Shown in pieces: positions 4,664 to 21,763 of a stretch of DNA of 64,000 bases. A program made the translations under genes and the position numbers. Source of the stretch: Mesorhizobium sp. (lineage in GTDB: Bacteria; Pseudomonadota; Alphaproteobacteria; Rhizobiales; Rhizobiaceae); assembly GCF_016793485.1 (NCBI RefSeq), contig NZ_JAEULZ010000026.1, positions 62,001 through 126,000 on the forward strand, in the 5' to 3' direction. Position 1 is the stretch's first letter. The number at the start of each line of letters is the position of its first letter. The notes under the pieces were generated by a model that did not search any database, was not told the DNA's origin, and saw nothing but the letters and a program-made list of their open reading frames with translations.

Positions 4664-6499
4664 ATGTCCAAGGCAGCGGGGCCGGGTAGCAGGCCCGACG
4701 CCGGCGAAGCGCCGGACGTCGAGCAGTATCTGGTCAAGGATCCGGAACGCTTCGCGGTCAACCTTGCGCGCATGGTCGAGCAGGCCGGCAAGGCCGCATC
4801 CGCATGGGTAGAGCCGCGCGAGAAGGGCGAGCGCCGCGATGCGCTGGCCGAGCCAATGACGGACATGGTCAAGACCTTCTCTAAGGTCACCGAATACTGG
4901 CTGGCAGACCCTTCGCGCGCGCTGGAAGCGCAGACGCGCCTGTTCGCTGGTTATCTGACAGTTTGGAGCAATGCGATCAGCCATGTGCGTACCGGCGAAC
5001 CGCCGTCGGACGCGATCAGCCCGGAAAAAGGCGACAAGCGGTTCCTCGATCCCGACTGGGGAAAGAACGCGTTCTTCGATTTCCTGAAACAGACCTATCT
5101 CGTCACGTCGCGCTGGGCGAACGATCTGGTCGAGCGCGCCGACGGGCTGGACGAACATACGCGCCACAAGGCCAGCTTCTACGTCAAGCAAATCTCCAAC
5201 GCGATCTCGCCGTCGAACTTCATCCTGACCAACCCCGAGCTCTTCCGCGAGACGGTCGCCTCCAACGGCGAGAACCTCGTGCGCGGCATGAAGATGCTGG
5301 CCGAGGACATCGCTGCCGGCCATGGCGACCTGAAGCTGAGGCAAGCGGACAATGCCAGCTTTGAGATCGGCCGGAACATTGCGATGAGCAAGGGAAAGGT
5401 CGTCGGCCGCAGCGACGTGGCGGAGATCATCCAGTACGAGCCGGCGACCGAGCAGGTGTTGAAGCGCCCACTGCTCATCTGCCCGCCCTGGATCAACAAG
5501 TTCTACATCCTCGACCTCAACCCTGAAAAATCCTTTATCCGGTGGGCGGCCGAACAGGGGCATACGGTCTTCGTGATTTCGTGGGTCAATCCCGACGAAC
5601 GGCACGGAGCCAAGGACTGGGAGGCCTACATCCGCGAGGGCGTGCAGTACGGGCTGGACACCGTCCAGCGCACGACGGGAGAGCGCGAGGTAAACGCGGT
5701 CGGATACTGCGTCGGCGGCACGTTGCTGGCGGCCAGCCTTGCCCTGATGGCGCAGGAAGGCGACGACCGTATCCGTTCCGCCACGCTCTTCGCCACGCAG
5801 GTGGACTTCACCTATGCCGGAGACCTCAAGGTTTTCGTCGATGAAGAACAGCTCGAGGCCGTCGAGCGCTCGATGAACGAAAAGGGTTATCTCGACGGCA
5901 CGCGCATGGCCACCGCCTTCAATATGCTGCGTTCCGGCGACCTCATCTGGCCTTATGTCGTCAACAACTACATGCGCGGCAAGGACCCCCTGCCCTTCGA
6001 CCTGCTGTATTGGAACGCCGATTCGACGCGCATGGCGGCCGCCAACCATTCCTATTACCTGCGCAACTGCTACCTCCAGAACACGCTGTCGCAGGGCACA
6101 ATGGAACTCGCCGGACACACGCTGTCTTTGTCCGACGTCAAGATTCCCGTGTACAATCTCGCGACCAAGGACGACCATATCGCGCCGGCGCGATCGGTGT
6201 TCCTCGGGAGCCGTTTCTTCGGCGGCAAGGTGGAATACGTGCTCACCGGATCGGGCCATATCGCCGGCGTGGTAAACCCACCCAAGGCAAACAAGTACCA
6301 GTACTGGACCGGCCCCGCACCTGTTGGCGACTTCGACACCTGGCTCGCGGCGGCATGCGAAACGGTGGGCTCTTGGTGGCCGCACTGGCAGAAATGGATC
6401 CTCGCGCAGGACGGACGGCGGGTGAAAGCCCGAAAACCCGGCAAGGGCGTCAAGGTGCTTGGCGACGCCCCGGGGACCTATGTGAAGGTTCGCGTGTAA
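4664..6499 (+). CDS. phaC: Class I poly(3-hydroxyalkanoate) synthase
   Basis: Polymerises (R)-3-hydroxyacyl-CoA, mainly 3-hydroxybutyryl-CoA, into storage polyester at the granule surface. The 611-residue length fits class I enzymes. The N-terminal PhaC_N region is followed by an alpha/beta-hydrolase core. The lipase-like box is GYCVGG (347-352) with nucleophile Cys349; the aspartate is in TKDDHI (about 503) and the histidine in GSGHIAG (His532). I start at the ATG at 4664 because GAGGAGGAA lies about 10 bases upstream. An in-frame ATG at 4628 would add 12 basic residues. No phaA/phaB or phasin genes are in the window. Confidence 0.96.
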   Translation: MSKAAGPGSRPDAGEAPDVEQYLVKDPERFAVNLARMVEQAGKAASAWVEPREKGERRDALAEPMTDMVKTFSKVTEYWLADPSRALEAQTRLFAGYLTVWSNAISHVRTGEPPSDAISPEKGDKRFLDPDWGKNAFFDFLKQTYLVTSRWANDLVERADGLDEHTRHKASFYVKQISNAISPSNFILTNPELFRETVASNGENLVRGMKMLAEDIAAGHGDLKLRQADNASFEIGRNIAMSKGKVVGRSDVAEIIQYEPATEQVLKRPLLICPPWINKFYILDLNPEKSFIRWAAEQGHTVFVISWVNPDERHGAKDWEAYIREGVQYGLDTVQRTTGEREVNAVGYCVGGTLLAASLALMAQEGDDRIRSATLFATQVDFTYAGDLKVFVDEEQLEAVERSMNEKGYLDGTRMATAFNMLRSGDLIWPYVVNNYMRGKDPLPFDLLYWNADSTRMAAANHSYYLRNCYLQNTLSQGTMELAGHTLSLSDVKIPVYNLATKDDHIAPARSVFLGSRFFGGKVEYVLTGSGHIAGVVNPPKANKYQYWTGPAPVGDFDTWLAAACETVGSWWPHWQKWILAQDGRRVKARKPGKGVKVLGDAPGTYVKVRV

Positions 6500-6656
6500 C
6501 ACTCTTTGAACGCACAAGGATTGACCTCCCGCCCCGAAGCAGGCGAAAAGGTGTCCCGAACCGTGGGGCCGGGCTGACGCTTCTTGTCCGGCGATCGGGT
6601 GAACTTGAGTTCACCGCCGTTCCGCAAATTGTGCCCACCTCAAAATCGGGCACAGT

Positions 6657-8174: not shown

Positions 8175-9398
8175 ATGAGTCTGTCGGACGCACTGCGGGT
8201 TGGCGCATGGGGTTGCGCCGTGATTGCATTGTCGGTGCTGCTTGCCTCCTGCTCATCACGACCGACAGGTGTCCTGACGCCTACCAGTAGCAGGCAGTCC
8301 GGTGCGACTACCATCGACATGCTGGTCGCCACGACGCGAGCGCCCTCAAACTCTCCTGGCATCGTTTTCTCCGGTGAACGCGGCGCGGGCGTCTCATTGA
8401 CCTCGTTCGCCATTTCCATTCCGCCAAATCGGCAGATCGGCCAGGTCCAGTGGCCGACCCGGCTTCCCGCAAACCCATCGAAGGACTTTACGACGATAAG
8501 CGTGACGTCACTCGCAGGTATCGGCGATGCTCGGGGTTGGCTGAAGCAGAACCTCCCGAAAAGTCGGCGTGTGCTGATTTTCGTGCACGGTTTCAACAAT
8601 GGTTATGAGGACGCCGTCTATCGATTTGCCCAGATTGCGCATGATTCCCAGGCTGAAGCTGCTCCTGTCCTGTTCACCTGGCCCTCTCGGGGCAGCGCAT
8701 TCGCGTACGGTTTCGATCGCGAGAGCGCGAATTTCTCGCGAGACGCCTTGGAGGAGACAATCTGGCAACTGTCGCAGGACGCGACCGTCGGCGATGTCAC
8801 GATCATGGGCCATTCCATGGGCGCCTGGTTGGTCATGGAGAGCCTTCGACAGATGGCGATCCGTCGCGGCAGCCTGCCGTCCTCCATTCACAACGTTATC
8901 CTCGCCTCCCCGGACATCGACGTCGACGTGTTCGGAACGCAATGGCGGGCGATGCAGCGACCCGATCTCCGCTTCACGATTTTCGTATCGCAGGCCGACC
9001 GCGCGCTTGCGCTTTCGCGAAGACTTGCCGGCCGTGTGGACCGCCTCGGACAGCTTGATGTGAATTCCGCAACCAGCTTTTCCCTGGCGGATAAGGCAGG
9101 CATCACCGTGATCGATCTCTCCGAACTGCGCGGCGGCGATTCGCTGAACCACAGCAAGTTTGCGGAATCGCCTGAGGTCGTCCGGCTGATCGGTGCGCGT
9201 CTGGTCGCCGGTCAGGTCATCGACGATTCCGATGCCAGCCTCGGTGAAAGAATCGGCATTGCAGCGATGGGCGTGGGCCAGGCTGTCGGTGGCGCGGCCG
9301 GGGCCGTGATAACGGCACCGATCGTCGTACTCGATCCCAATACGAGAAGAACCTACAACGATCAGCTCAACCAGATTGGCCGGCCGGACGACTACTAG
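8175..9398 (+). CDS. DUF900-type alpha/beta-hydrolase lipoprotein
   Basis: A 407-residue probable lipoprotein (VLLASC lipobox, Cys26) with an alpha/beta-hydrolase domain of the DUF900 group. FVHGFNNG (137-143) is the oxyanion-region motif and GHSMGA (212-217) the nucleophile elbow with Ser214. Substrate unknown. I use the ATG at 8175; an in-frame TTG lies 12 bases upstream. A 28-codon ORF (8092-8178) ends across this ATG as an ATGA overlap and could couple translation, but has no independent support. The stop overlaps the convergent gene at 9395 by 4 bases. Confidence 0.82.
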   Translation: MSLSDALRVGAWGCAVIALSVLLASCSSRPTGVLTPTSSRQSGATTIDMLVATTRAPSNSPGIVFSGERGAGVSLTSFAISIPPNRQIGQVQWPTRLPANPSKDFTTISVTSLAGIGDARGWLKQNLPKSRRVLIFVHGFNNGYEDAVYRFAQIAHDSQAEAAPVLFTWPSRGSAFAYGFDRESANFSRDALEETIWQLSQDATVGDVTIMGHSMGAWLVMESLRQMAIRRGSLPSSIHNVILASPDIDVDVFGTQWRAMQRPDLRFTIFVSQADRALALSRRLAGRVDRLGQLDVNSATSFSLADKAGITVIDLSELRGGDSLNHSKFAESPEVVRLIGARLVAGQVIDDSDASLGERIGIAAMGVGQAVGGAAGAVITAPIVVLDPNTRRTYNDQLNQIGRPDDY

Positions 9399-10465
9399 GC
9401 AGGCTCATCGTAACATCTGTTCGCGAGCTGCAGCGCGTCAAACCTGCCGGCTTTGTCCAGCCTGCCGAGATACTGCACCGAGGCATAGAAACGCGTGTAA
9501 TCGCCCGAACACAGGTCGAATAACCGGATAAACTCATCCACCTGGTCGCTGTAGACCGACACTGCGGCAAGCTTGGCATTGTTGATCGGAGCATCGAACC
9601 AGCCATCGTACCCGCGGAATCCGCGCCAGCGGCCGTCACGGACCTGCCGGTAGCGCGCCCGCAATCTATCGATAACCTTCGCTTTCGCGTCGCGCTTTTC
9701 ATCCACGCTGCCGGAGCCAGCATAAATCCGCGCCAATTCTTCGCGCGTTCGCGATACCAGAGCGATGAATTCGGCGCGGCGCTTCCTATCAGCCTCGTAG
9801 CGGCGTAATCCGGCGGTGTCGCCGGCGGCACGCAACCATCTTCTTACGCCGGTTGTTTCGACCGCGACGGCAAAGGCCTCGTTGAACTCGGAATCGCCTG
9901 CTGTGTAGACCCGCTGATGGGCCAATTCGTGGAAAACCACGGCTGCGAGGTCGGTTTCGCCCTGCGCAAACATCGTGCTCAGCAACGGGTCACTTGACCA
10001 TCCCAGGGTCGAATAGGCGGTTACGCCGCCTATATATACATCCAGCCCCTGCCCCTGCAGTTCACGGGCAAATTCGACAGCCTTTTCCCTTGAAAAATAG
10101 CCGCGGTATGGGACGCAGCCATAGACCGGAACGCACCATGTCCGGGGGACAAGCGACAACTCCGGCGCGGCGAACACCGCCCATGTCACGGCATCGCGAC
10201 CGATATCGACATAGCTGCGGTAGCTCCTGTTGTCTGGCAATCCCAGTTCGTCGATGGCAAACTGCCGTATCGCACGCGCATCCTCCATTCGTTTGCGCAA
10301 TTCTTCGGAGGTCGAAGGATTCTCGATAAGCTTTGCGACGTCCTGGCGCGCGGTCATGATCGTCACGTGACCTTCCAGGGACTGCGCGTAGTACGGAATG
10401 CTTGTGCAGCCGGCGATGCCGAATACCATAACTGTCACGGCAACCAGCCGGAAGAATGCTCGCAT
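9395..10465 (-). CDS. Zinc-dependent aminopeptidase-like lipoprotein
   Basis: A 356-residue protein of the putative-aminopeptidase family (PF10023 type). A lipoprotein signal ends GIAGC (Cys20). The zinc motif is HELAH (179-183) with a further glutamate in FNEAF (Glu196), as expected for a gluzincin-like site. Residues 220-300 are charged and probably helical. It is therefore likely a membrane-anchored periplasmic metallopeptidase; the substrate is unknown. ATG at 10463-10465. It converges on the hydrolase lipoprotein gene. Confidence 0.82.
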   Translation of the reverse strand: MRAFFRLVAVTVMVFGIAGCTSIPYYAQSLEGHVTIMTARQDVAKLIENPSTSEELRKRMEDARAIRQFAIDELGLPDNRSYRSYVDIGRDAVTWAVFAAPELSLVPRTWCVPVYGCVPYRGYFSREKAVEFARELQGQGLDVYIGGVTAYSTLGWSSDPLLSTMFAQGETDLAAVVFHELAHQRVYTAGDSEFNEAFAVAVETTGVRRWLRAAGDTAGLRRYEADRKRRAEFIALVSRTREELARIYAGSGSVDEKRDAKAKVIDRLRARYRQVRDGRWRGFRGYDGWFDAPINNAKLAAVSVYSDQVDEFIRLFDLCSGDYTRFYASVQYLGRLDKAGRFDALQLANRCYDEPA

Positions 10466-10606
10466 GGGGTCCGGCCTTAGAACTGCTTACCGCGCCAATG
10501 AAGCGAATATCGCCAATGCACGCGGATTCGGCAATTCGTTCAGCAGCCTGCTAAGAGATAGCAAGCAAAGACGGCTATGTTTCCGATGTCGGATCGGCCG
10601 TAGTGC

Positions 10607-10816
10607 TTATGCAACCCGATCCGACCGGCCGCCGATGGCGGTTTCCAGGCCGCTGCGGAGGTCGGCAATGCTGATGGCTCCGAGATCGAAAAGCGCACTC
10701 ACGAGTTCGGTGACGTAAAGACGCTCATCGCCGTCCTCGATGCCACAGTCATGGCAATACTCGTCTACCGCCTGCGTCAGGAGTTTTTGCTGCTGGAATG
10801 TTCCGTTGAAAGCCAT
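10607..10816 (-). CDS. Small protein of unknown function (69 aa)
   Basis: I do not recognise this protein. The strong Shine-Dalgarno AGGAGGAGAG ends about 4 bases before the ATG at 10814-10816 and fixes the start; the open frame extends further up to 10930 but has no ribosome site. The 69 residues are acidic with CHDCGIEDGDE near residues 18-28, which could bind metal only speculatively, and the rest is predicted helical. It stands alone between the peptidase lipoprotein gene and the sugar operon. Confidence 0.6.
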   Translation of the reverse strand: MAFNGTFQQQKLLTQAVDEYCHDCGIEDGDERLYVTELVSALFDLGAISIADLRSGLETAIGGRSDRVA

Positions 10817-11011
10817 GATGCTCTCTCCTCCTTTTGTAGGGGCGAAAGCGTGATCGACTCTTCCAAGCGTCCGGATGCCGGGGGATATCGGACGACAACA
10901 CCACCATAGAGCTTGGTCCAACCATTGCATCTAACAAATGTTACCCAACTGACTGAGTTTGGCCCGCCTCGCGAACATGTGAACTTTCGACCTTCCGAGC
11001 ATCGACTATGG

Positions 11012-11070
11012 ATTCAGTACACTAATATACCAATTTCCGTTGACACCCCTTCTACGAGCGTGAAGATTGT
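11012..11070 (+). promoter_or_regulatory. Candidate promoter/operator of the sugar operon
   Basis: Upstream of the Gfo/Idh gene there is TTGACA at 11040-11045, 17 bases from AAGATT, and just before it an AT-rich segment GTACACTAATATACCAA. The AT-rich segment could be an operator for the operon's GntR regulator. No perfect dyad is present, so this is tentative. Confidence 0.3.
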
Positions 11071-11096
11071 CGCAAGGCTATCACTGGGAGGATGAG

Positions 11097-12275
11097 GTGC
11101 CGACAGACAGGGGCTTGAGGGTCGGACTTGTAGGCGCCGGCTTCATGGGCCGCACTCACTCCAACGCCTATCATCAGGTGAGCCGCTTCTTTCCGCAGGA
11201 AAGAGGCGCTGATCTGGTCGCCGTGTGCTCTCGCGACGGCGCGAAGGCCCAGGACTTCGCTACTCAATGGGGCTACGGCGGACACGAAACTGACTGGCGA
11301 AAGCTGGTCGCGCGCGATGACATCGACCTGATAGACATCGCCACTCCGAACGACACCCATGCCGAGATCGCCGAAGCTGCTGCCAAGGCCGGGAAGATGG
11401 TAGCATGCGAGAAGCCGCTGGGTCGCAGCCTCGCGGAATCGCGGCGCATGACGGTCGCCGTCGAACGCGCCGACGTCGCCAACATGGTCTGGTACAACTA
11501 CCGGCGCGTCCCTGCCCTCGCGCTCGCGAAGCAGATGATCGATGAGGGCCGGCTCGGGCGCATCTTCCACAGCCGCTTCAAATTCCTTCAGGACTGGACT
11601 ATTTCCGCCGACCTGCCTCAGGGCGGCGCGGGCACCTGGCGGCTTGATGCCGCCGTGGCTGGCAGCGGCGTCACTGGCGACCTGCTTGCGCACTGTATCG
11701 ACGCAGCGCTCTGGCTGGTCGGACCGGTAGCGGAGGTTTCCGGGACAACGGAAGTCTTCGTGCCAGAACGTGTCCATGCCCTCACCGGCAAGCGCGAGCC
11801 GATTACACTGGACGACGCCAGCCTGTTCCTTGCCCGTTTCGCCAACGGATCGCTGGCGACGTTCGAGGCGACGCGCTTCGCACGCGGCCACAAGGCGCTG
11901 TTCACGCTGGAGCTCAACGGCGAAAAGGGCTCGGTCGCCTGGGACCTGCATGACCTGCACCGGCTGCAATTCTTCAGCTACGATGGCGACGGCGCGACAC
12001 GCGGCTGGCGCTCGATTCACGTCACTGACGGCGACCACCCATACATGAAGGCTTGGTGGGTTCCGGGCCTGCAGATCGGTTACGAGCATACCTTCGTGCA
12101 TCAGGTCGCGGATTTCATGTCCGGCCTGCGCACTGGGACCAAGACCGTACCCGACTTCGCGGACGGCCTCGCGGTCGACGCCGTGGTTGACGCCGTCCTG
12201 AAATCGGCGCGATCGCGAAGCTGGGAAACCGTGGAAAATATCGAACAGGCGGCCAGGCTGGAGGGGGCAGCCTGA
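11097..12275 (+). CDS. Gfo/Idh/MocA family NAD(P)-dependent oxidoreductase
   Basis: A 392-residue oxidoreductase. The Rossmann motif is [12 protein letters not shown] near the N-terminus, followed by the family signature ACEKPLG (the EKP lysine is catalytic) and the C-terminal alpha/beta domain with a [16 protein letters not shown] helix. Such enzymes oxidise sugars, inositols or sugar acids. The GTG at 11097 follows GGAGG (11088-11092); an in-frame TTG at 11067 is the alternative. It leads a same-strand set with ABC transporter genes and a GntR regulator, so the substrate is probably the transported sugar or polyol. Confidence 0.9.
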
Positions 12276-12351
12276 GCCGACAGCCGGAAGCAAAAGTCGA
12301 AGGGCGTCGCGCCGGATCAGCAGGCCGACGACCATGGATGGGAGGAGCCGC

Positions 12352-13092
12352 ATGCCACTTCTGGATATCCGGAATGTTTCGAAAAGTTTCGGAGCCATCC
12401 GGGCGCTGACCGATATCAGTTTTTCGGTGGAGCCGGGCGAAGTCGTCGGCCTCATGGGCGACAACGGCGCGGGCAAATCCACGATGGTCAAGCTGATCGC
12501 TGGCAACTTCCGCCCAGACGAAGGCGAGGTGCATGTTGATGGCGAAACGTGCGAGTTCAACAAGCCCATTGAAGCACGCGGCAAGGGTATCGAGGTCGTC
12601 TACCAGGACCTTGCGCTGGCGGACAATCTGACAGCGGCTCAGAACGTTTTCCTCGGGCGCGAGATCAAGAAGGGAGTCTGGCCATTTCGCGTGCTCGACA
12701 AGCAGGCCATGATCGACCGCTCGGCCGACCTGTTCGCCGAACTCAAGTCCGAGACGCGTCCTCGCGATCTCGTGAAGAAAATGTCCGGCGGCCAGCGGCA
12801 GGCGGTAGCGATCGCGCGCACGCGCCTCTCCAACGCCAAGCTCGTGATGATGGACGAACCCACAGCCGCCATCTCGGTGCGGCAGGTGGCGGAGGTCCTG
12901 GAACTCATCCGCCGCCTCAAGGCGCAGGGCGTGTCTGTCATGTTGATCAGCCACCGCATGCCCGACGTGTTCGCCGTCTGCGACCGCATCGTGGTGATGC
13001 GACGCGGTACGAAAGTTGCGGACAAGCCGACGGCATCGACCTCGCCTGAAGAAATCACCGGACTTATTACGGGAGCGATACGTGCAGCCTGA
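12352..13092 (+). CDS. ABC sugar transporter ATP-binding protein (single-domain, FrcA-like)
   Basis: A 246-residue ATPase that powers the neighbouring permease. Walker A is GDNGAGKST (36-44), the signature MSGGQ (144-148), Walker B KLVMMDEPT (163-171) and the H-loop SHRM. It has one ATPase domain instead of the fused pair seen in RbsA, as in the rhizobial FrcA type. The ATG at 12352 has GGGAGGAG five bases ahead; an in-frame ATG at 12334 is less well placed. The 3' end overlaps the permease start by 11 bases, indicating coupled translation. Confidence 0.94.
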   Translation: MPLLDIRNVSKSFGAIRALTDISFSVEPGEVVGLMGDNGAGKSTMVKLIAGNFRPDEGEVHVDGETCEFNKPIEARGKGIEVVYQDLALADNLTAAQNVFLGREIKKGVWPFRVLDKQAMIDRSADLFAELKSETRPRDLVKKMSGGQRQAVAIARTRLSNAKLVMMDEPTAAISVRQVAEVLELIRRLKAQGVSVMLISHRMPDVFAVCDRIVVMRRGTKVADKPTASTSPEEITGLITGAIRAA

Positions 13093-17720: not shown

Positions 17721-17780
17721 TGGTGCGGATGAAGGGACTCGAACCCCCACGCCTTGCGGCACCGGAACCTAAATCCGGGG
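17721..17780 (-). pseudogene. 3' part of the native tRNA-Leu(TAG), split by an integrated element
   Basis: On the minus strand this holds the anticodon arm (CCGGA, loop TTTAGGT, TCCGG), variable arm, T arm (GGGGG TTCGAGT CCC), acceptor CATCCGC and ACCA. Nothing upstream on the element side can complete a tRNA. Joined to 19913-19937 it gives an 85-base tRNA-Leu whose acceptor stem GCGGATG/CATCCGC pairs perfectly. It is therefore the displaced half of one gene. Confidence 0.88.
17765..17780. repeat. Left attachment core (att repeat)
   Basis: GAACCTAAATCCGGGG, identical to 19897-19912. The bases on both sides differ from the right copy, so the identity block is exactly 16 bp. On the minus strand it covers the tRNA-Leu anticodon loop and the 5' side of its stem, a common crossover site for tyrosine recombinases. 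Confidence 0.88.
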
Positions 17781-17826
17781 TGGAAATCCCGGAGGCTATA
17801 TAATCCACGGGGTCGAGGAAAATTGT

Positions 17827-17877
17827 CGGGCACAGTTCAGGCACTCCTCGGGCACACCGGGCACAGTTTCGGGCACA
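17827..17877 (+). repeat. Four CGGGCACA direct repeats near left end (putative integrase arm sites)
   Basis: Exact CGGGCACA copies start at 17827, 17849, 17858 and 17870, all in the same orientation; a partial copy (CAGGCAC) is at 17838. Three more lie near the right end. Short spaced repeats flanking the core on both element arms are typical binding sites for the integrase arm-binding domain or for excisionase. Confidence 0.6.
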
Positions 17878-17880
17878 GTC

Positions 17881-17909
17881 TTGCCATAGCCGTTCGGGGC
17901 CGGTAGAGG
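17881..17909 (+). promoter_or_regulatory. Candidate promoter of the element-borne tRNA-Leu
   Basis: TTGCCA at 17881-17886 and TAGAGG at 17904-17909 are 17 bases apart, and the second box is about 11 bases before the tRNA 5' end. This would give the tRNA its own sigma-70-type promoter inside the element. Confidence 0.4.
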
Positions 17910-17919
17910 GGGCGGCGCT

Positions 17920-18004
17920 GCGGGCGTGGTGGAATTGGTAGACACAGCAGGTTTAGGTCCTGCCGCCGCAAGGTTTGGGGGTTCGAGTCCCTCCGCCCGC
18001 ACCA
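17920..18004 (+). tRNA. tRNA-Leu (anticodon TAG), carried by the integrated element
   Basis: An intact 85-base leucine tRNA: acceptor GCGGGCG/CGCCCGC, type II variable arm, anticodon stem GCAGG/CCTGC with loop TTTAGGT (anticodon TAG at 17954-17956), T arm GGGGG TTCGAGT CCCTC, discriminator A and encoded CCA. It has the same anticodon as the native gene the element split, but a different acceptor stem and D arm, so it is not a local duplicate. It presumably supplies CUN decoding lost by the insertion. Confidence 0.95.
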
Positions 18005-18232
18005 TCACCACCAGTGCTCCTGGTGTCCTCTAGAGTCATACCAGCGAGTGGATACGTTAACCGGGTCCTTGATTAGGCCCGAGCGTATCATGCCCTCGGC
18101 CTCCGCGACGGTGCGAAACGAACCGTGGCTGTCCCATAAGCGGAATGGCCACCGACCTGTCAGCGCCTTGAGGCGGAACCACACTTCGCCGTTCGGATGC
18201 CTCCACTCCTCGATCTTGTATTTGTCAGCCAT
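18005..18232 (-). CDS. Small element protein, 75 aa, unknown function
   Basis: I do not recognise it. It is basic and rich in tryptophan (six or more Trp), with IEEWRHPNGEVWFRLKAL near the start and ending HWW. The ATG at 18230-18232 overlaps the stop of the 22-codon ORF upstream as TGATG, which supports coupled translation. The stop is immediately next to the tRNA-Leu 3' end on the other strand. Probably a phage early protein. Confidence 0.6.
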   Translation of the reverse strand: MADKYKIEEWRHPNGEVWFRLKALTGRWPFRLWDSHGSFRTVAEAEGMIRSGLIKDPVNVSTRWYDSRGHQEHWW

Positions 18233-18300
18233 CAGTCGTTGTCTCCATAGAGGACTGGACGCACGCGGCGGCCGGTGTAGGCGAAGTCGTAGTCGTTCAT
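18232..18300 (-). CDS. Possible 22-aa peptide gene linking two element ORFs
   Basis: The frame MNDYDFAYTG...YGDND starts at an ATG overlapping the stop of the 152-aa gene (ATGA at 18297-18300) and stops in a TGATG overlap with the 75-aa gene. The precise fit on both sides is the main support; there is no homology I can name. It could be a real peptide or merely a re-initiation bridge. Confidence 0.4.
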   Translation of the reverse strand: MNDYDFAYTGRRVRPVLYGDND

Positions 18301-18755
18301 GCCGAGACCCTCCGGCCAAACCCGAGGCTGTCCTTCCAGAACGAGAGCTTCAGGAATGGAGACCGGCGAGTGAACGTGTGGTCTGGTGTGAAGTGGTACC
18401 ATTTGTACCCGAGCGCGGCGTAGTAGATCGAAATGATGTGCCGGCCGTTCTGCCCAAGGGCGTCGATAGCGGCCCAAGTCAGCGCCGTTCGCCGGCAATA
18501 GGACGCCTTATGGTACGTCGCTAGGCGGTGGAAAGCCGTCGCAAGGTCGGTGTTGTGGTGCTTGGTCTTGTTCAGCAGATCGCGGGCTCGCTGGTACTCC
18601 AGCAACCGCGCTCCGGCGTCGAAGGAGAAGAACATCGTTGCCGCTACAGCGACGAATGATCCCGGAGCCGGGACTATAGAGGCAACAGAAGTGGACAGCA
18701 AAGCGAGGACGAGCGGCGGCCAGACAGCCGCGATGGAGTGGAGGATCGACTTCAT
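18297..18755 (-). CDS. Element protein with N-terminal membrane segments, 152 aa, unknown
   Basis: The first 50 residues hold two hydrophobic stretches (AAVWPPLVLALLSTSVASIV and SFVAVAATMFFSF); the remainder is soluble and aromatic-rich, with a helical RARDLLNKTKHHNTDLATAFH region. The ATG at 18753-18755 follows AAAGG. A hairpin terminator lies just upstream, so it may have its own promoter or depend on read-through. No family recognised; a phage-type accessory membrane protein is plausible. Confidence 0.6.
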   Translation of the reverse strand: MKSILHSIAAVWPPLVLALLSTSVASIVPAPGSFVAVAATMFFSFDAGARLLEYQRARDLLNKTKHHNTDLATAFHRLATYHKASYCRRTALTWAAIDALGQNGRHIISIYYAALGYKWYHFTPDHTFTRRSPFLKLSFWKDSLGFGRRVSA

Positions 18756-18770
18756 GGCTTACCTTTCGAG

Positions 18771-18803
18771 GACAAAGAAAAGCCCCCGGTGGAAGCCGAG
18801 GGC
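18771..18803 (-). terminator. Rho-independent terminator within the element
   Basis: On the minus strand GCCCTCGG, a CTTCCA loop and CCGGGGGC form an 8-bp stem with one G:U pair, followed by a T-rich TTTTCTTT tract. It would end transcripts coming from the polymerase fragment and the 53-aa gene. Confidence 0.7.
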
Positions 18804-18832
18804 GCTGACGAAACAGAGAGGTTGATGGGAGG

Positions 18833-18994
18833 CTAAGACGCCTGACGCTTAGCCGAGGACATGCGGTAGTGAATGAAGCCGGCAGCGAGGCCGATGAGCG
18901 CACCGATCAGGTCCGCTCCTGGCACCCACATGGCGGTCAGGCCGAAGATGGACACGACGCCGACGACAATGCCTATGACAATGGAAACGAGCAT
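18833..18994 (-). CDS. 53-aa membrane protein of the element
   Basis: A short frame of 53 codons with two predicted membrane helices (SIVIGIVVGVVSIFGLTAMW and LIGALIGLAAGFIHY) and a basic tail RMSSAKRQAS. AAGG-type ribosome-binding bases (GGAGACC) precede the ATG at 18992-18994. It lies 35 bases after the polymerase fragment. Its size and two-helix form resemble phage holin-like or inner-membrane peptides, but no motif confirms this. Confidence 0.6.
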   Translation of the reverse strand: MLVSIVIGIVVGVVSIFGLTAMWVPGADLIGALIGLAAGFIHYRMSSAKRQAS

Positions 18995-19029
18995 GGAAGG
19001 TCTCCGATGAGGAAACCCTTCCTATAACC

Positions 19030-19691
19030 CTACGCGACTCGTTCGAGCAAGGCCACCACGTCGTCCAGCGCTGCGTCGGCTTCAGGAACTTGACGGTCTT
19101 CTTGCCGTGCTTCTCGGAGCCGAACTCCAGCAGGCCGGTGGCCGAGACCATCAGCTCAATCAGCTTCAGGCCGGTCAGGAGCTTGTCGCGGTCAGACCAA
19201 GGGTCCCAATCGTCGCCGTGCTCGCGGAGCATGTGCATGAGGACGCGACGGCGGTGTTCGAGGTGCCCGGTGTTGTCGTCAAGGAAGCCGAGGGTGCCCT
19301 TGAAGTTCTGGGCGTTGTCCACAGCGAACTTCGCCAGACGCTTCTCCAGCTCGACAGTGCTGCCGATCCGGACGGCGAGTCGGGTGAGGTTCTGGTCCTG
19401 CGCATAGCCGTCGAGGATGAACTTGGCCGTGATGAAGGCCAGGGCCTCGGCCTCCAGCCCGCTGAAGAACCGCACGGCGCTGTGTCGCCTCCCTGCCCGG
19501 CCAGAGCCGGCCTCGTCCCGGAACTTCAGGATCGCGGCTGCGGTCGGGTCGATCACAACATCGAGAACGGTCTGCATGGATTTCGAGCGAGTCGCCTCGC
19601 CGGCCTCACGGGCTTCGAGGGCGTTCCTGCGAAATCGGTCTACACCGAGCGAAGCCATACGGGCCTCCAGATCGGCTTGAATTTCCATCAT
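19030..19691 (-). pseudogene. N-terminal fragment of a T7-like single-subunit RNA polymerase (frameshifted, truncated)
   Basis: About 215 residues align with T7 RNA polymerase residues of roughly 35-230: FFSGLEAEALAFITAKFIL matches T7 FLQEIKPEAVAYITIK, and WDPWSDRDKLLTGLKLIELM matches T7 WSSWHKEDSIHVGVRCIEML. This is the N-terminal domain that contacts the promoter; palm, fingers and thumb with the catalytic aspartates are missing. Near 19083-19088 the frame must shift by one base to give the natural-looking end PEADAALDDVVALLERVA and the stop at 19030. Start ATG 19691 or 19688, with AAGGAG upstream. It cannot polymerise RNA. Confidence 0.82.
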
Positions 19692-19714
19692 GTCTTGCAC
19701 GGTTTCTCCTTGGT

Positions 19715-19773
19715 TGGGCACAAGTTCGGGCACACATGGCCTCTCGGTCACGTTTCGTTCTTTTTCGGGCACA
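19715..19773 (+). repeat. Three (C/T)GGGCACA direct repeats near right end (putative integrase arm sites)
   Basis: Copies start at 19715 (TGGGCACA), 19727 and 19766 (both CGGGCACA), in the same orientation as the left-end set. The 12-base spacing 19715-19727 equals the left spacing 17858-17870. They lie between the polymerase start and the right attachment core, in non-coding DNA. Confidence 0.6.
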
Positions 19774-19896
19774 CAATCCAGTCCCGGAACCGGGAACACT
19801 AATCCGAGCCGAAAAACGCCCCAGTTACGGGGCTCAAGTCCTTGTTGGGTAAGGGATAGCGCTGTCTAGTCCCGCATCCGGGACAATTCCGTAGCA

Positions 19897-19912
19897 GAAC
19901 CTAAATCCGGGG
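19897..19912. repeat. Right attachment core (att repeat)
   Basis: Second copy of GAACCTAAATCCGGGG, joined on its right to the 5' half of the native tRNA-Leu. Downstream of it on the minus strand the sequence is not tRNA-like, so integration did not rebuild the gene. Confidence 0.88.
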
Positions 19913-19937
19913 CGTCTACCAGTTCCGCCACATCCGC
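19897..19937 (-). pseudogene. 5' part of the native tRNA-Leu(TAG)
   Basis: Reading the minus strand from 19937: acceptor GCGGATG, then TGGCGGAACTGGTAGAC (D arm of leucine type), then the anticodon stem and loop up to the attachment core. The 3' half is found at 17721-17780. The gene's presumed promoter remains attached to this half. Confidence 0.88.
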
Positions 19938-20290
19938 GCCCGCCCGCCAATCCCACGTTGGCCATCATTCTGTCAATCTCAAGGATGACAGCTTGTTCCC
20001 GTCTGTGTGACGCGAAGAAGTGTTGAAAATCCGCGGCGCGTATGACAAAAGGCGTGTCAATTGTGACGGGAGTGAAAGATCCGCTGCTTGCTGGCTCGGT
20101 AAGATAGTTCAGAAACAACGACTTATCGACAGAAGCACGTGTCCAGCGCCAAGGAATCCGGGCCGTAAGCGGCCGGTTGACTGTGCGTTCTGCCCTCATG
20201 ACGAACTAGCCACTCCGGCACGAATACACCGGCAGGCTGAACGGCGCGGCCGTACAGAATGCGCGGATTCGAGAAACGAAGGTTTTGACG
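19938..20290. other. Intergenic region between split tRNA-Leu and trigger factor gene
   Basis: About 350 bases without a credible gene. It holds the tRNA-Leu promoter at its left side and must hold the tig promoter at its right. Open frames here lack ribosome sites and recognisable proteins. Confidence 0.55.
19943..19976 (-). promoter_or_regulatory. Probable promoter of the split tRNA-Leu, now reading into the element
   Basis: TTGACA (19971-19976, minus strand) lies 34 bases upstream of the mature 5' end of the native tRNA, the expected position for a -35 box; the -10 would be near GTGGGATTG. With the tRNA cut, transcripts would run across the right core into the element's minus-strand genes. 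Confidence 0.45.
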
Positions 20291-21763
20291 ATGCAGGTTA
20301 CCGAGACGCTGAATTCCGGCCTCAAGCGCGAAATAAAGGTCACCGTTCCGGCCGGCGACATGGAAGCCCGGCTCGTGACGCGGCTTAACGAGATCAAGGA
20401 CAAGGCCCGCATCAACGGCTTCCGTCCGGGCAAAGTGCCGCTGCAGCACCTGCGCAAGGTCTACGGCAAGTCCTTCATGGCCGAGGTTGTGAACGACATC
20501 CTGTCGAACCAGACCCGCCGCATCATTGCCGACCGGGGTGAAAAGGCTGCCATGCAGCCCGAGGTCACGATGACAGAGGACGAGAAGGAAGCAGAGAAAA
20601 TCCTGGCCGGCAACGCCGACTTCGAGTTCCAGCTTGCCTACGAGATCATCCCGGCCATCGAGATCAAGGCTGTATCGGACATCGCCGTCACCCGTTCTGT
20701 GTATGACGTGCCGGAGAGCGAGATAGACGACCAGGTAAAGCGCGTCGCCGAATCGACTCGCAGTTACGAAACGAAGGCCGGCAAGGCCGCGGAGGGCGAC
20801 CGGGTCTCGATCGACTATGTCGGCAAGATCGACGGCGTGGCCTTCGATGGCGGCGCGGGCACCGACCAGCCGCTCGTGCTCGGCTCCAAGGAGTTCATCC
20901 CCGGTTTCGAGGACCAGCTTGTCGGCACCAAGGCCGGCGACGAAAAGCAGATCACCGTGACTTTCCCGGAGAACTACCAGGCACCGCATCTGGCCGGCAA
21001 GGAAGCCACCTTCGACGTCACCGTCAAGGAAGTCTCGGCCCCCGGCCCGTTTGAGATCAACGACGAAACGGCCAAGGCGCTCGGCCTGGAATCGCTCGAC
21101 CGCCTGCGCGAGATCGTGAAGGGCCAGCTCGAAAGCCAGTTCGGCTCGATCACGCGCCAGAAGGTCAAGCGCCAGTTGCTCGACCAGCTTGATAGCGCCT
21201 ACCAGTTCGAGGCCCCCTCCAAGCTTGTGGAAGCCGAATTCACCAACATCTGGAACCAGGTGAACCGCGACCTGCAGGCGGCCGGCCGCACCTTCGCGGA
21301 CGAGGAAACCACAGAGGACGAGGCTCGCGAGGAGTATACCAAGCTCGCCGAGCGTCGTGTCCGCCTCGGCCTGGTGCTGGCGGAGATCGGCGAGAAGGCT
21401 GGCGTGACGGTCGCCGACGAGGAGGTCCAGCGAGCCCTATTCGAAACCATCCGCCGCTTCCCGGCCGACCAGCAGCAGCAGGCGTTCGAATTCTACCGCA
21501 ATACGCCCGACGCGATCACCTCGATCCGCGCACCGCTGTTCGAGGAAAAAGTGATCGACCACCTGCTTGGCCAGGTTTCGGTGACCGACAAGAAGGTCTC
21601 GAAGGAAGAACTGACCGCCGAGGACGAGGCGGAAGAAACCGCCAAGCCGGCCAAGAAGGCCACAGCCAAGAAGGCGAAGAAGGCCGACGATGCGGCTTCG
21701 GAAGAAACTGCCGAAGCGCCGAAGAAGAAGGCGACCAAGAAGAAGGCCGCCGACGCCGAGTAA
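20291..21763 (+). CDS. tig: Trigger factor (ribosome-associated chaperone/prolyl isomerase)
   Basis: Binds L23 at the ribosome exit tunnel and shields nascent chains. The 490 residues include the N-terminal ribosome-binding domain with FRPGKVP (the GFRxGxxP signature, about residues 43-50), a central FKBP-type isomerase domain (about 160-245, starting [14 protein letters not shown]), and the helical C-terminal arms. After these comes a roughly 50-residue tail of alternating Lys/Ala and acidic blocks ([13 protein letters not shown]...[13 protein letters not shown]). The ATG at 20291 follows GAAGG; an in-frame TTG lies two codons earlier. Confidence 0.97.

Follow-up and report, generated by a model that had tools for sequence, protein, structure and literature searches.

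How does a bacterium keep reading CUA codons when its tRNA-Leu(UAG) gene has been cut in two? The question is raised by a 2,132-bp element that interrupts the native tRNA-Leu(UAG) gene in its anticodon arm, with a 16-bp core repeat, in the window (the whole 64,000-nucleotide stretch of Mesorhizobium sp. DNA analyzed here). The original prediction was that the halves of this gene lie on the minus strand joined to 16-bp repeats, that neither junction rebuilds a tRNA, and that the element is addictive because it supplies a complementing tRNA. The features of the locus, in window positions, are as follows.

17721..17780, minus strand: 3' half of the native tRNA-Leu(UAG) with core repeat (sequence reading, junction analysis)
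17765..17780, no strand given: left att core, 16 bp (repeat search, junction analysis)
17827..17877, plus strand: four CGGGCACA repeats, probably arm-type sites for an integrase and conserved in both L053 and L088 (phage contigs)
17920..18004, plus strand: complete phage-derived tRNA-Leu(UAG) (ARAGORN; 92.9% identity to its counterpart in phage contig L088)
18297..18755, minus strand: 152-aa ORF with a homologue in phage contigs L053, L088, and L103 (48-50% over 110-126 aa)
18833..18994, minus strand: 53-aa ORF; its DNA matches the L103 stretch directly after the integrase (73% over 100 bp)
18995..19066, no strand given: probable deletion junction between RNA polymerase and post-integrase genes, exact point not fixed (comparison with phage contigs)
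19067..19799, minus strand: N-terminal fragment of a T7-like phage RNA polymerase (phrog_414, E 1.4e-32, positions 2-220 of 816)
19715..19773, no strand given: GGGCACA repeats, likely arm-type sites, flanking the core on its other side (sequence reading)
19897..19912, no strand given: right att core, 16 bp (repeat search, junction analysis)
19897..19937, minus strand: 5' half of the native tRNA-Leu(UAG) with core repeat (sequence reading, junction analysis)
20285..21763, plus strand: flanking host gene, which we take to be trigger-factor-like (tig-like); it adjoins an uninterrupted tRNA gene in five relatives

The predicted arrangement of the halves was borne out by the coordinates and by a repeat search, in which the 16-mer GAACCTAAATCCGGGG (plus strand) had exactly two copies in the window, 17765-17780 and 19897-19912. 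ARAGORN found no tRNA at the left or the right junction; only the flanks, joined in silico at the core, gave one, a complete 85-nt tRNA-Leu(tag). Rebuilding through the att overlap was therefore rejected, and the host gene is destroyed, as had been proposed. An attB within a host tRNA gene, a short common core, and a tRNA that is not rebuilt are features of tRNA-dependent lysogeny (PMC10865867), and all are present here. In five relatives lacking the element, the native tRNA-Leu(tag) gene is uninterrupted next to the same neighbor gene, and each carries exactly one tRNA-Leu(UAG). A plus-strand tRNA at this locus without the element, an arrangement that would have spoken against insertion, was found in none of the five and was rejected.

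The element is a stump left by a T7-like temperate prophage (Autographiviridae). Along with the tRNA, it contains a truncated phage RNA polymerase gene, likely arm sites for an integrase, and two small ORFs that have homologues in phage contigs. The polymerase fragment, the one trace of the single-subunit enzyme of this family, is 50% identical to that of Rhizobium phage Pasto and 73% to that of L053, and its reading frame extends to 18849 through unrelated sequence; it also gave the single Pfam match on the element, a sub-threshold one. No PHROGs family was found for either small ORF, nor a Pfam family for the 152-aa one. Searches of the 2.1 kb by ORFs, Pfam, and PHROGs revealed no replication, structural, or terminase genes, as expected of a remnant rather than a phage, and no integrase ORF, although a phage-encoded tyrosine integrase is part of tRNA-dependent lysogeny. 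The integrase is gone, and with it probably about 95% of the phage.

In related IMG/VR contigs, tRNA, arm sites, attP, and RNA polymerase follow one another in this same order. The layout of the element recurs in L053 and L088, the gene order after the integrase is matched in L103, and the stretch comprising the element tRNA and arm sites is 84.8% identical to L088 over 171 bp. Relatives L088, Pasto, and Shinella carry an integrase. Every part of the stump can be matched to one end or the other of related phages, with the order kept and a single internal gap. This collinearity speaks against a living satellite, in which the att sites, arm sites, and small genes would be retained for mobilization by a related T7-like helper phage providing integrase and capsids. 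Both cores, both sets of arm-like repeats, and open small ORFs would suit such a satellite, but a broken RNA polymerase is no satellite gene, and no second copy of the region was present among the matches listed for 40 relatives; we regard a satellite as very unlikely.

The prediction of a complete tRNA-Leu(TAG) on the opposite strand of the element was correct (17920-18004, plus strand). This tRNA folds fully and is 78.8% identical to the restored native tRNA-Leu(tag), with the same anticodon, which supports its proposed complementing role. The assembly (draft, 5.2 Mb, 52 contigs, listed as 100% complete with 2.26% contamination) gave 44 Rfam tRNA matches. The eight long (class II) tRNAs outside the element were typed as Tyr, three Ser, and Leu taa, caa, cag, and gag, with no further intact tRNA-Leu(tag) among the typed class II tRNAs of this draft. 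A pattern of Leu D-arm plus UAG loop had two matches in this genome, the element tRNA and the 5' half of the broken gene; as the reversed control gave seven matches, the pattern alone is unspecific. Taken together, the Rfam matches, typing, and pattern search led us to reject a second UAG tRNA elsewhere in the draft assembly, where the element tRNA is the sole intact copy.

Phage tRNAs are common, and the remnant of an ordinary tRNA-site prophage could hold a non-functional one as a passenger while another tRNA reads CUA. Compatible with this are the rarity of CUA (7 of 268 leucine codons in eight CDSs counted) and the negative search for a consensus sigma-70-type promoter upstream of the element tRNA, which also counts against our preferred reading. 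Yet CUA is in use, once in the tig-like gene itself, and the intact fold, the sole copy in the draft, and the single UAG tRNA of each of the five relatives leave the passenger explanation with little probability. The element tRNA is presumably expressed, charged, and essential; in tRNA-dependent lysogeny the lysogen needs the phage tRNA to survive, and the sole copy in the draft supports such a need indirectly.

The assembly is a draft, but collapse of a full prophage to 2.1 kb is the least credible explanation, as the insertion site is internal to a 142-kb contig, no further phrog_414 match (hence no additional T7-like RNA polymerase) exists in the assembly, and no close integrase was found there at E 1e-60.

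Very probably, then, a T7-like phage integrated, split tRNA-Leu(UAG), and decayed, and its own tRNA took over as the tRNA-Leu(UAG) of the host. A temperate phage akin to Pasto and L053/L088 would have entered the anticodon arm by means of a tyrosine integrase. Because attP and the gene would have only the short core in common, the gene would be split without being rebuilt, and the lysogen would have survived on the complete tRNA-Leu(UAG) that the phage brought. In its anticodon arm this phage tRNA differs from the core, so that it would not itself be an integration target. A later deletion of perhaps 40 kb, from the start of the RNA polymerase gene through to a small gene just past the integrase, would have left a stump unable to excise by an integrase of its own; since a deletion also taking the tRNA would be expected to be lethal, the phage tRNA would have become that of the host. 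The claim of an addictive element thus holds in part: the complementing tRNA is present, but with the integrase gone there is no self-sufficient mobile unit, and the term fits the phage's past, the present state being closer to a fixed gene replacement. A distantly related integrase encoded in this genome (locus L022; 39% over 222 aa; 12 of 18 integrase loci compared) might act on the att sites, which counts against this history.

A second decayed case lies in Shinella PSBB067 (UAA; 8,829 bp; 11-bp core), where an integrase is still present. There, too, the joined flanks give a tRNA and the junctions none, and the element tRNA is the sole UAA copy in the 4.6-Mb record by pattern search. Two related prophages, in G943 and in Afifella, can rebuild the tRNA, which we counted against the preferred history; the one in G159 probably does likewise. 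The prophage in G943, a genome of the same bacterial family as the window, also targets a tRNA-Leu(UAG), next to what reads by eye as a tig-like start, and has a related RNA polymerase (64% to L053) and an integrase 53% identical to that of Pasto. Unlike the element, it has the 3' half within its attP and thereby rebuilds the host tRNA; only one tRNA was found in the 54-kb stretch. A scan of genome contigs yielded two loci, one of them that of Afifella. No anticodon-arm att sites were resolved for prophages of G150, G289, G314, G114, G401, G175, and G192, and G1055 and G726 have related integrases with no RNA polymerase match within the fetched stretch.

Among 20 T7-like phages surveyed (about seven lineages by our own grouping), 11 carry a tRNA-Leu, 10 of these with an att-like core of the same anticodon; the nine without one speak against a simple rule. 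The 8-base words used were picked after a first scan of 13 phages, and phage Eistla, with no integrase annotated in the fetched stretch, was excluded. The survey suggests that temperate T7-like phages infecting alpha-, beta-, and gammaproteobacteria carry a tRNA-Leu to make up for the matching host gene, which their integration destroys. In the case of Pseudomonas phage LUZ100, the authors of PMC10134795 had proposed that the tRNA-Leu was recruited through imprecise excision.

That a phage tRNA replaces a broken host gene is already published: it was shown experimentally, as tRNA-dependent lysogeny, in actinobacteriophages in 2024 (PMC10865867) and inferred for Rhizobium Autographiviridae in 2021 (PMC8631192) and for Sinorhizobium tRNA-Leu(UAG) in 2024 (PMC11476347). 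The vTRX32-1/RHEph01 group, T7-like phages of rhizobia, likewise has a short core (12 bp, CAGATTTAGGTT) within host tRNA-Leu and its own core-less tRNA-Leu, said to substitute for the interrupted gene and block self-integration; unlike the stump, these phages are complete and inducible, with an integrase, and the study reports no degraded copies in its strain collection (PMC8631192). Lo5R7ANS-like prophages inactivate the same tRNA species centrally (Sinorhizobium meliloti tRNA-Leu(UAG)026) and bring a replacing tRNA-Leu(UAG) resembling that of other alphaproteobacteria, but are classed as intact (PMC11476347), whereas the element lacks an integrase and nearly all phage genes. The actinobacteriophage system shares the short core, the unrebuilt host tRNA, and complementation by a same-isotype phage tRNA, demonstrated there by experiment, but its phages and hosts are unrelated to those here, the phages are living ones, and the tRNA is mostly Lys, one group having Leu(CAA) instead (PMC10865867). 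In the parts of the tRNA-dependent lysogeny literature available to us, we found no description of a decayed final stage with the phage tRNA as the host's sole copy.

We lean toward the view that the decay of T7-like prophages with tRNA-dependent lysogeny allows a phage gene to take the permanent place of an essential bacterial tRNA gene present in single copy. The tRNA would guard itself from deletion, making stumps that keep it, as in the window and in Shinella, an expected end state. Since the core is missing from the phage tRNA, attB would also disappear with the swap, which should close the genome to re-lysogenization by the same phage group. That a single phage group shows both rebuilding and replacement is relevant to an evolutionary question raised in PMC10865867. 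With the phage nearly gone and its tRNA the host's only copy, this end state would show concretely how a tRNA gene that is conserved and probably essential can be replaced horizontally.

The native tRNA-Leu(UAG) is split by the 2,132-bp element, which carries a complementing tRNA between the two halves:

17721-17780 and 19897-19937, minus strand: halves of the native tRNA-Leu(UAG), with a common 16-bp repeat over the anticodon arm
17765-17780 and 19897-19912: the two copies of the 16-bp repeat (core), over the anticodon arm
17920-18004, plus strand: complete element tRNA-Leu(tag), full cloverleaf fold

The whole window contains exactly two copies of the repeat. ARAGORN detected no tRNA at the element junction on either side, and joining the flanks at the core in silico restored the empty site, with a complete 85-nt tRNA-Leu(tag). 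The original prediction of a tRNA-Leu split between 16-bp repeats with junctions that do not rebuild it, and of a complete opposite-strand tRNA-Leu of the same anticodon between the halves, thus describes real features. The element and native tRNAs share 78.8% identity.

The frame at 18849-19799 (minus strand) matched phage RNA polymerase phrog_414 (1.4e-32; profile positions 2-220 of 816). In a tblastn search of this frame against phages, which matched 885 records, Rhizobium phage Pasto ranked first (50%), with the following layout:

Pasto 5434-6510: tyrosine integrase
Pasto 8491-8573, opposite strand: tRNA-Leu, anticodon Leu(taa)
Pasto from 9351: RNA polymerase

The Pasto RNA polymerase is preceded, at a distance of 603 bp, by a Leu(UAA) anticodon-arm word. 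The related IMG/VR phage contig L053 encodes a full-length RNA polymerase, 73-74% identical to that of the element across the common part. Some 360 bp upstream of it, on the other strand, is a tRNA-Leu(tag), and between the two lies the core GGGATTTAGGTTCTG, amid GTGCCCG repeats. A second contig, L088, has the same order and an integrase in addition, and a third, L103, has DNA homologous to the 53-aa and 152-aa ORFs of the window directly after its integrase. The window retains the RNA polymerase to about 19067; beyond a junction at 18995-19066 come the pair of small ORFs, then the tRNA and arm-like sites. The element has no integrase, replication or structural genes. Together, these phage layouts indicate that the window retains both ends of such a prophage. 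Judged by the size of its relatives (about 42 kb), the prophage would have lost about 40 kb. A decayed derivative of a prophage of known kind explains the observation well. One defining feature of that kind, the integrase, is absent from the element.

The element tRNA is closer to that of L088 (92.9% identity) than to that of its own host (78.8%), and the stretch comprising the tRNA and arm sites is 84.8% identical to L088 over 171 bp. Matches to the element tRNA at E 1e-19 or better were found in 35 of 394 genomes of the family, the own genome included. Beyond the latter, the best matches (five genomes at 92%, one more at 89%) were whole tRNA-Leu(tag) genes, all from one other genus. Both that tRNA and the phage tRNA lack GATTTAGGTTC in the anticodon arm. 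The phage tRNA may have come from a host of that other genus.

The element tRNA is the sole intact tRNA-Leu(UAG) in the assembly (5.21 Mb, 52 contigs). Among 44 Rfam tRNA matches, the eight long tRNAs outside the element were typed as Tyr, three Ser, and Leu taa, caa, cag and gag. A pattern combining the Leu D-arm and UAG loop had no matches beyond the element tRNA and the broken half; the reversed control matched seven times, so this pattern is not specific when taken alone. No second intact copy was found in this assembly, in agreement with the prediction. The same pattern matched exactly once per genome in all five relatives searched, which were three congeners and two members of the same family (reversed control, 1-7 per genome). 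When the 2.3-kb region was used as a DNA query against 40 relatives, the matches listed were only pieces of about 30-102 bases, and in the closest genomes among them both tRNA halves matched side by side, as an uninterrupted gene. A comparison of related strains had been proposed as a check; at five of these loci, ARAGORN found an intact tRNA-Leu(tag). The tig-like gene (20285-21763) adjoins the tRNA in all five (81-89% identity); the permease-like gene that flanks the other side is present in one of the five 3-kb loci.

We infer that the element tRNA is both expressed and essential. CUA is a rare codon but does occur, making up 7 of the 268 leucine codons in eight window CDSs, with one of the seven in the tig-like gene. 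In mycobacteriophages lysogen survival is reported to need the phage tRNA (PMC10865867). DNA upstream of the element tRNA is conserved with L053 and L088; a search there for a sigma-70-type promoter found none. The own genome encodes an integrase distantly related to that of L088 (39% over 222 aa; 12 of 18 integrase loci compared). The lack of a promoter in that search and the presence of this integrase are weak points of the mechanism. The integrase lies in C17:1-15000, on the same contig as an intact tRNA-Leu(CAG), and no repeat of that tRNA was found near it.

Twenty T7-like phages (18 named records from hit lists and two IMG/VR contigs), forming about seven lineages by our grouping, were surveyed. 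Nineteen have an integrase; L053 has none because the contig is cut short. A tRNA-Leu is present in 11, always UAA or UAG, and in 10 of these it is opposite to the strand of the phage genes. In 10 of the 11, the stretch from integrase to RNA polymerase contains an 8-base word of the anticodon arm for that same anticodon (chance 0.2-4.4% per phage; non-overlapping base pairs shuffled 500 times); the words had been picked after a first scan. In the eleventh, TRX32-1, for which a 12-bp core is described (PMC8631192), this stretch is cut by the record end. The word of the other anticodon occurred in none of the 20, and neither word in the nine phages without tRNA-Leu. Anticodon arms of other tRNAs may also be targets of this integrase group. 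The tRNA-Leu genes of RHEph21, HTVC200P, RHEph01 and HTVC119P, detected by ARAGORN, are unannotated in their records. HTVC019P and HTVC304P carry AGGATTTGCAATCC, which resembles the tRNA-Cys(GCA) anticodon arm, between integrase and RNA polymerase; in IMG/VR contig L105, a tRNA-Cys(gca) lies in that interval.

In Shinella sp. PSBB067 (NZ_CP069303.1), tRNA-Leu(UAA) is interrupted by an element of 8,829 bp whose core is 11 bp long; the joined flanks give a whole tRNA and neither junction does. Within this element, the RNA polymerase frame aligns only to residues 2-775 of 831, the integrase frame is open, and a tRNA-Leu(taa) belonging to the element lies on the opposite strand. A pattern search of the 4.6-Mb record matched the element tRNA, the broken half and a third site overlapping the broken half on the other strand. 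In three IMG/VR contigs, a host 3' half adjoins phage DNA bearing the same tRNA species (the analysis of each contig covered this junction only):

L101: UAA
L132: UAA, LUZ100-like; its name suggests an isolate genome
L139: UAG, RHEph01-like

The classical solution is also used by related phages. In G943, a genome of the same family, a prophage with 64% RNA polymerase identity lies inside tRNA-Leu(UAG) beside a tig-like start (read by eye) and supplies its own 3' half, rebuilding the tRNA. In Afifella pfennigii (9935-12700 of locus L083; also L086), a T7-like stump lies beside a whole, rebuilt tRNA-Leu(UAA); the RNA polymerase of this stump is truncated, and its integrase match is split in two. 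Both modes are thus found in one phage group, which speaks against a simple rule.

T7-like phages with tRNA-Leu att sites have been described (PMC10134795, PMC8776855; related literature, PMC9437464, PMC6918029), and phiLM21-like prophages are reported to rebuild their tRNA (PMC12429752). Our literature search turned up no account of a decayed stump that leaves its tRNA as the sole copy, and PMC8631192 reports no degraded copies among its strains. The principle itself is already in print (PMC8631192, PMC11476347, PMC10865867); the interest of the present case lies in the end state and its generality.
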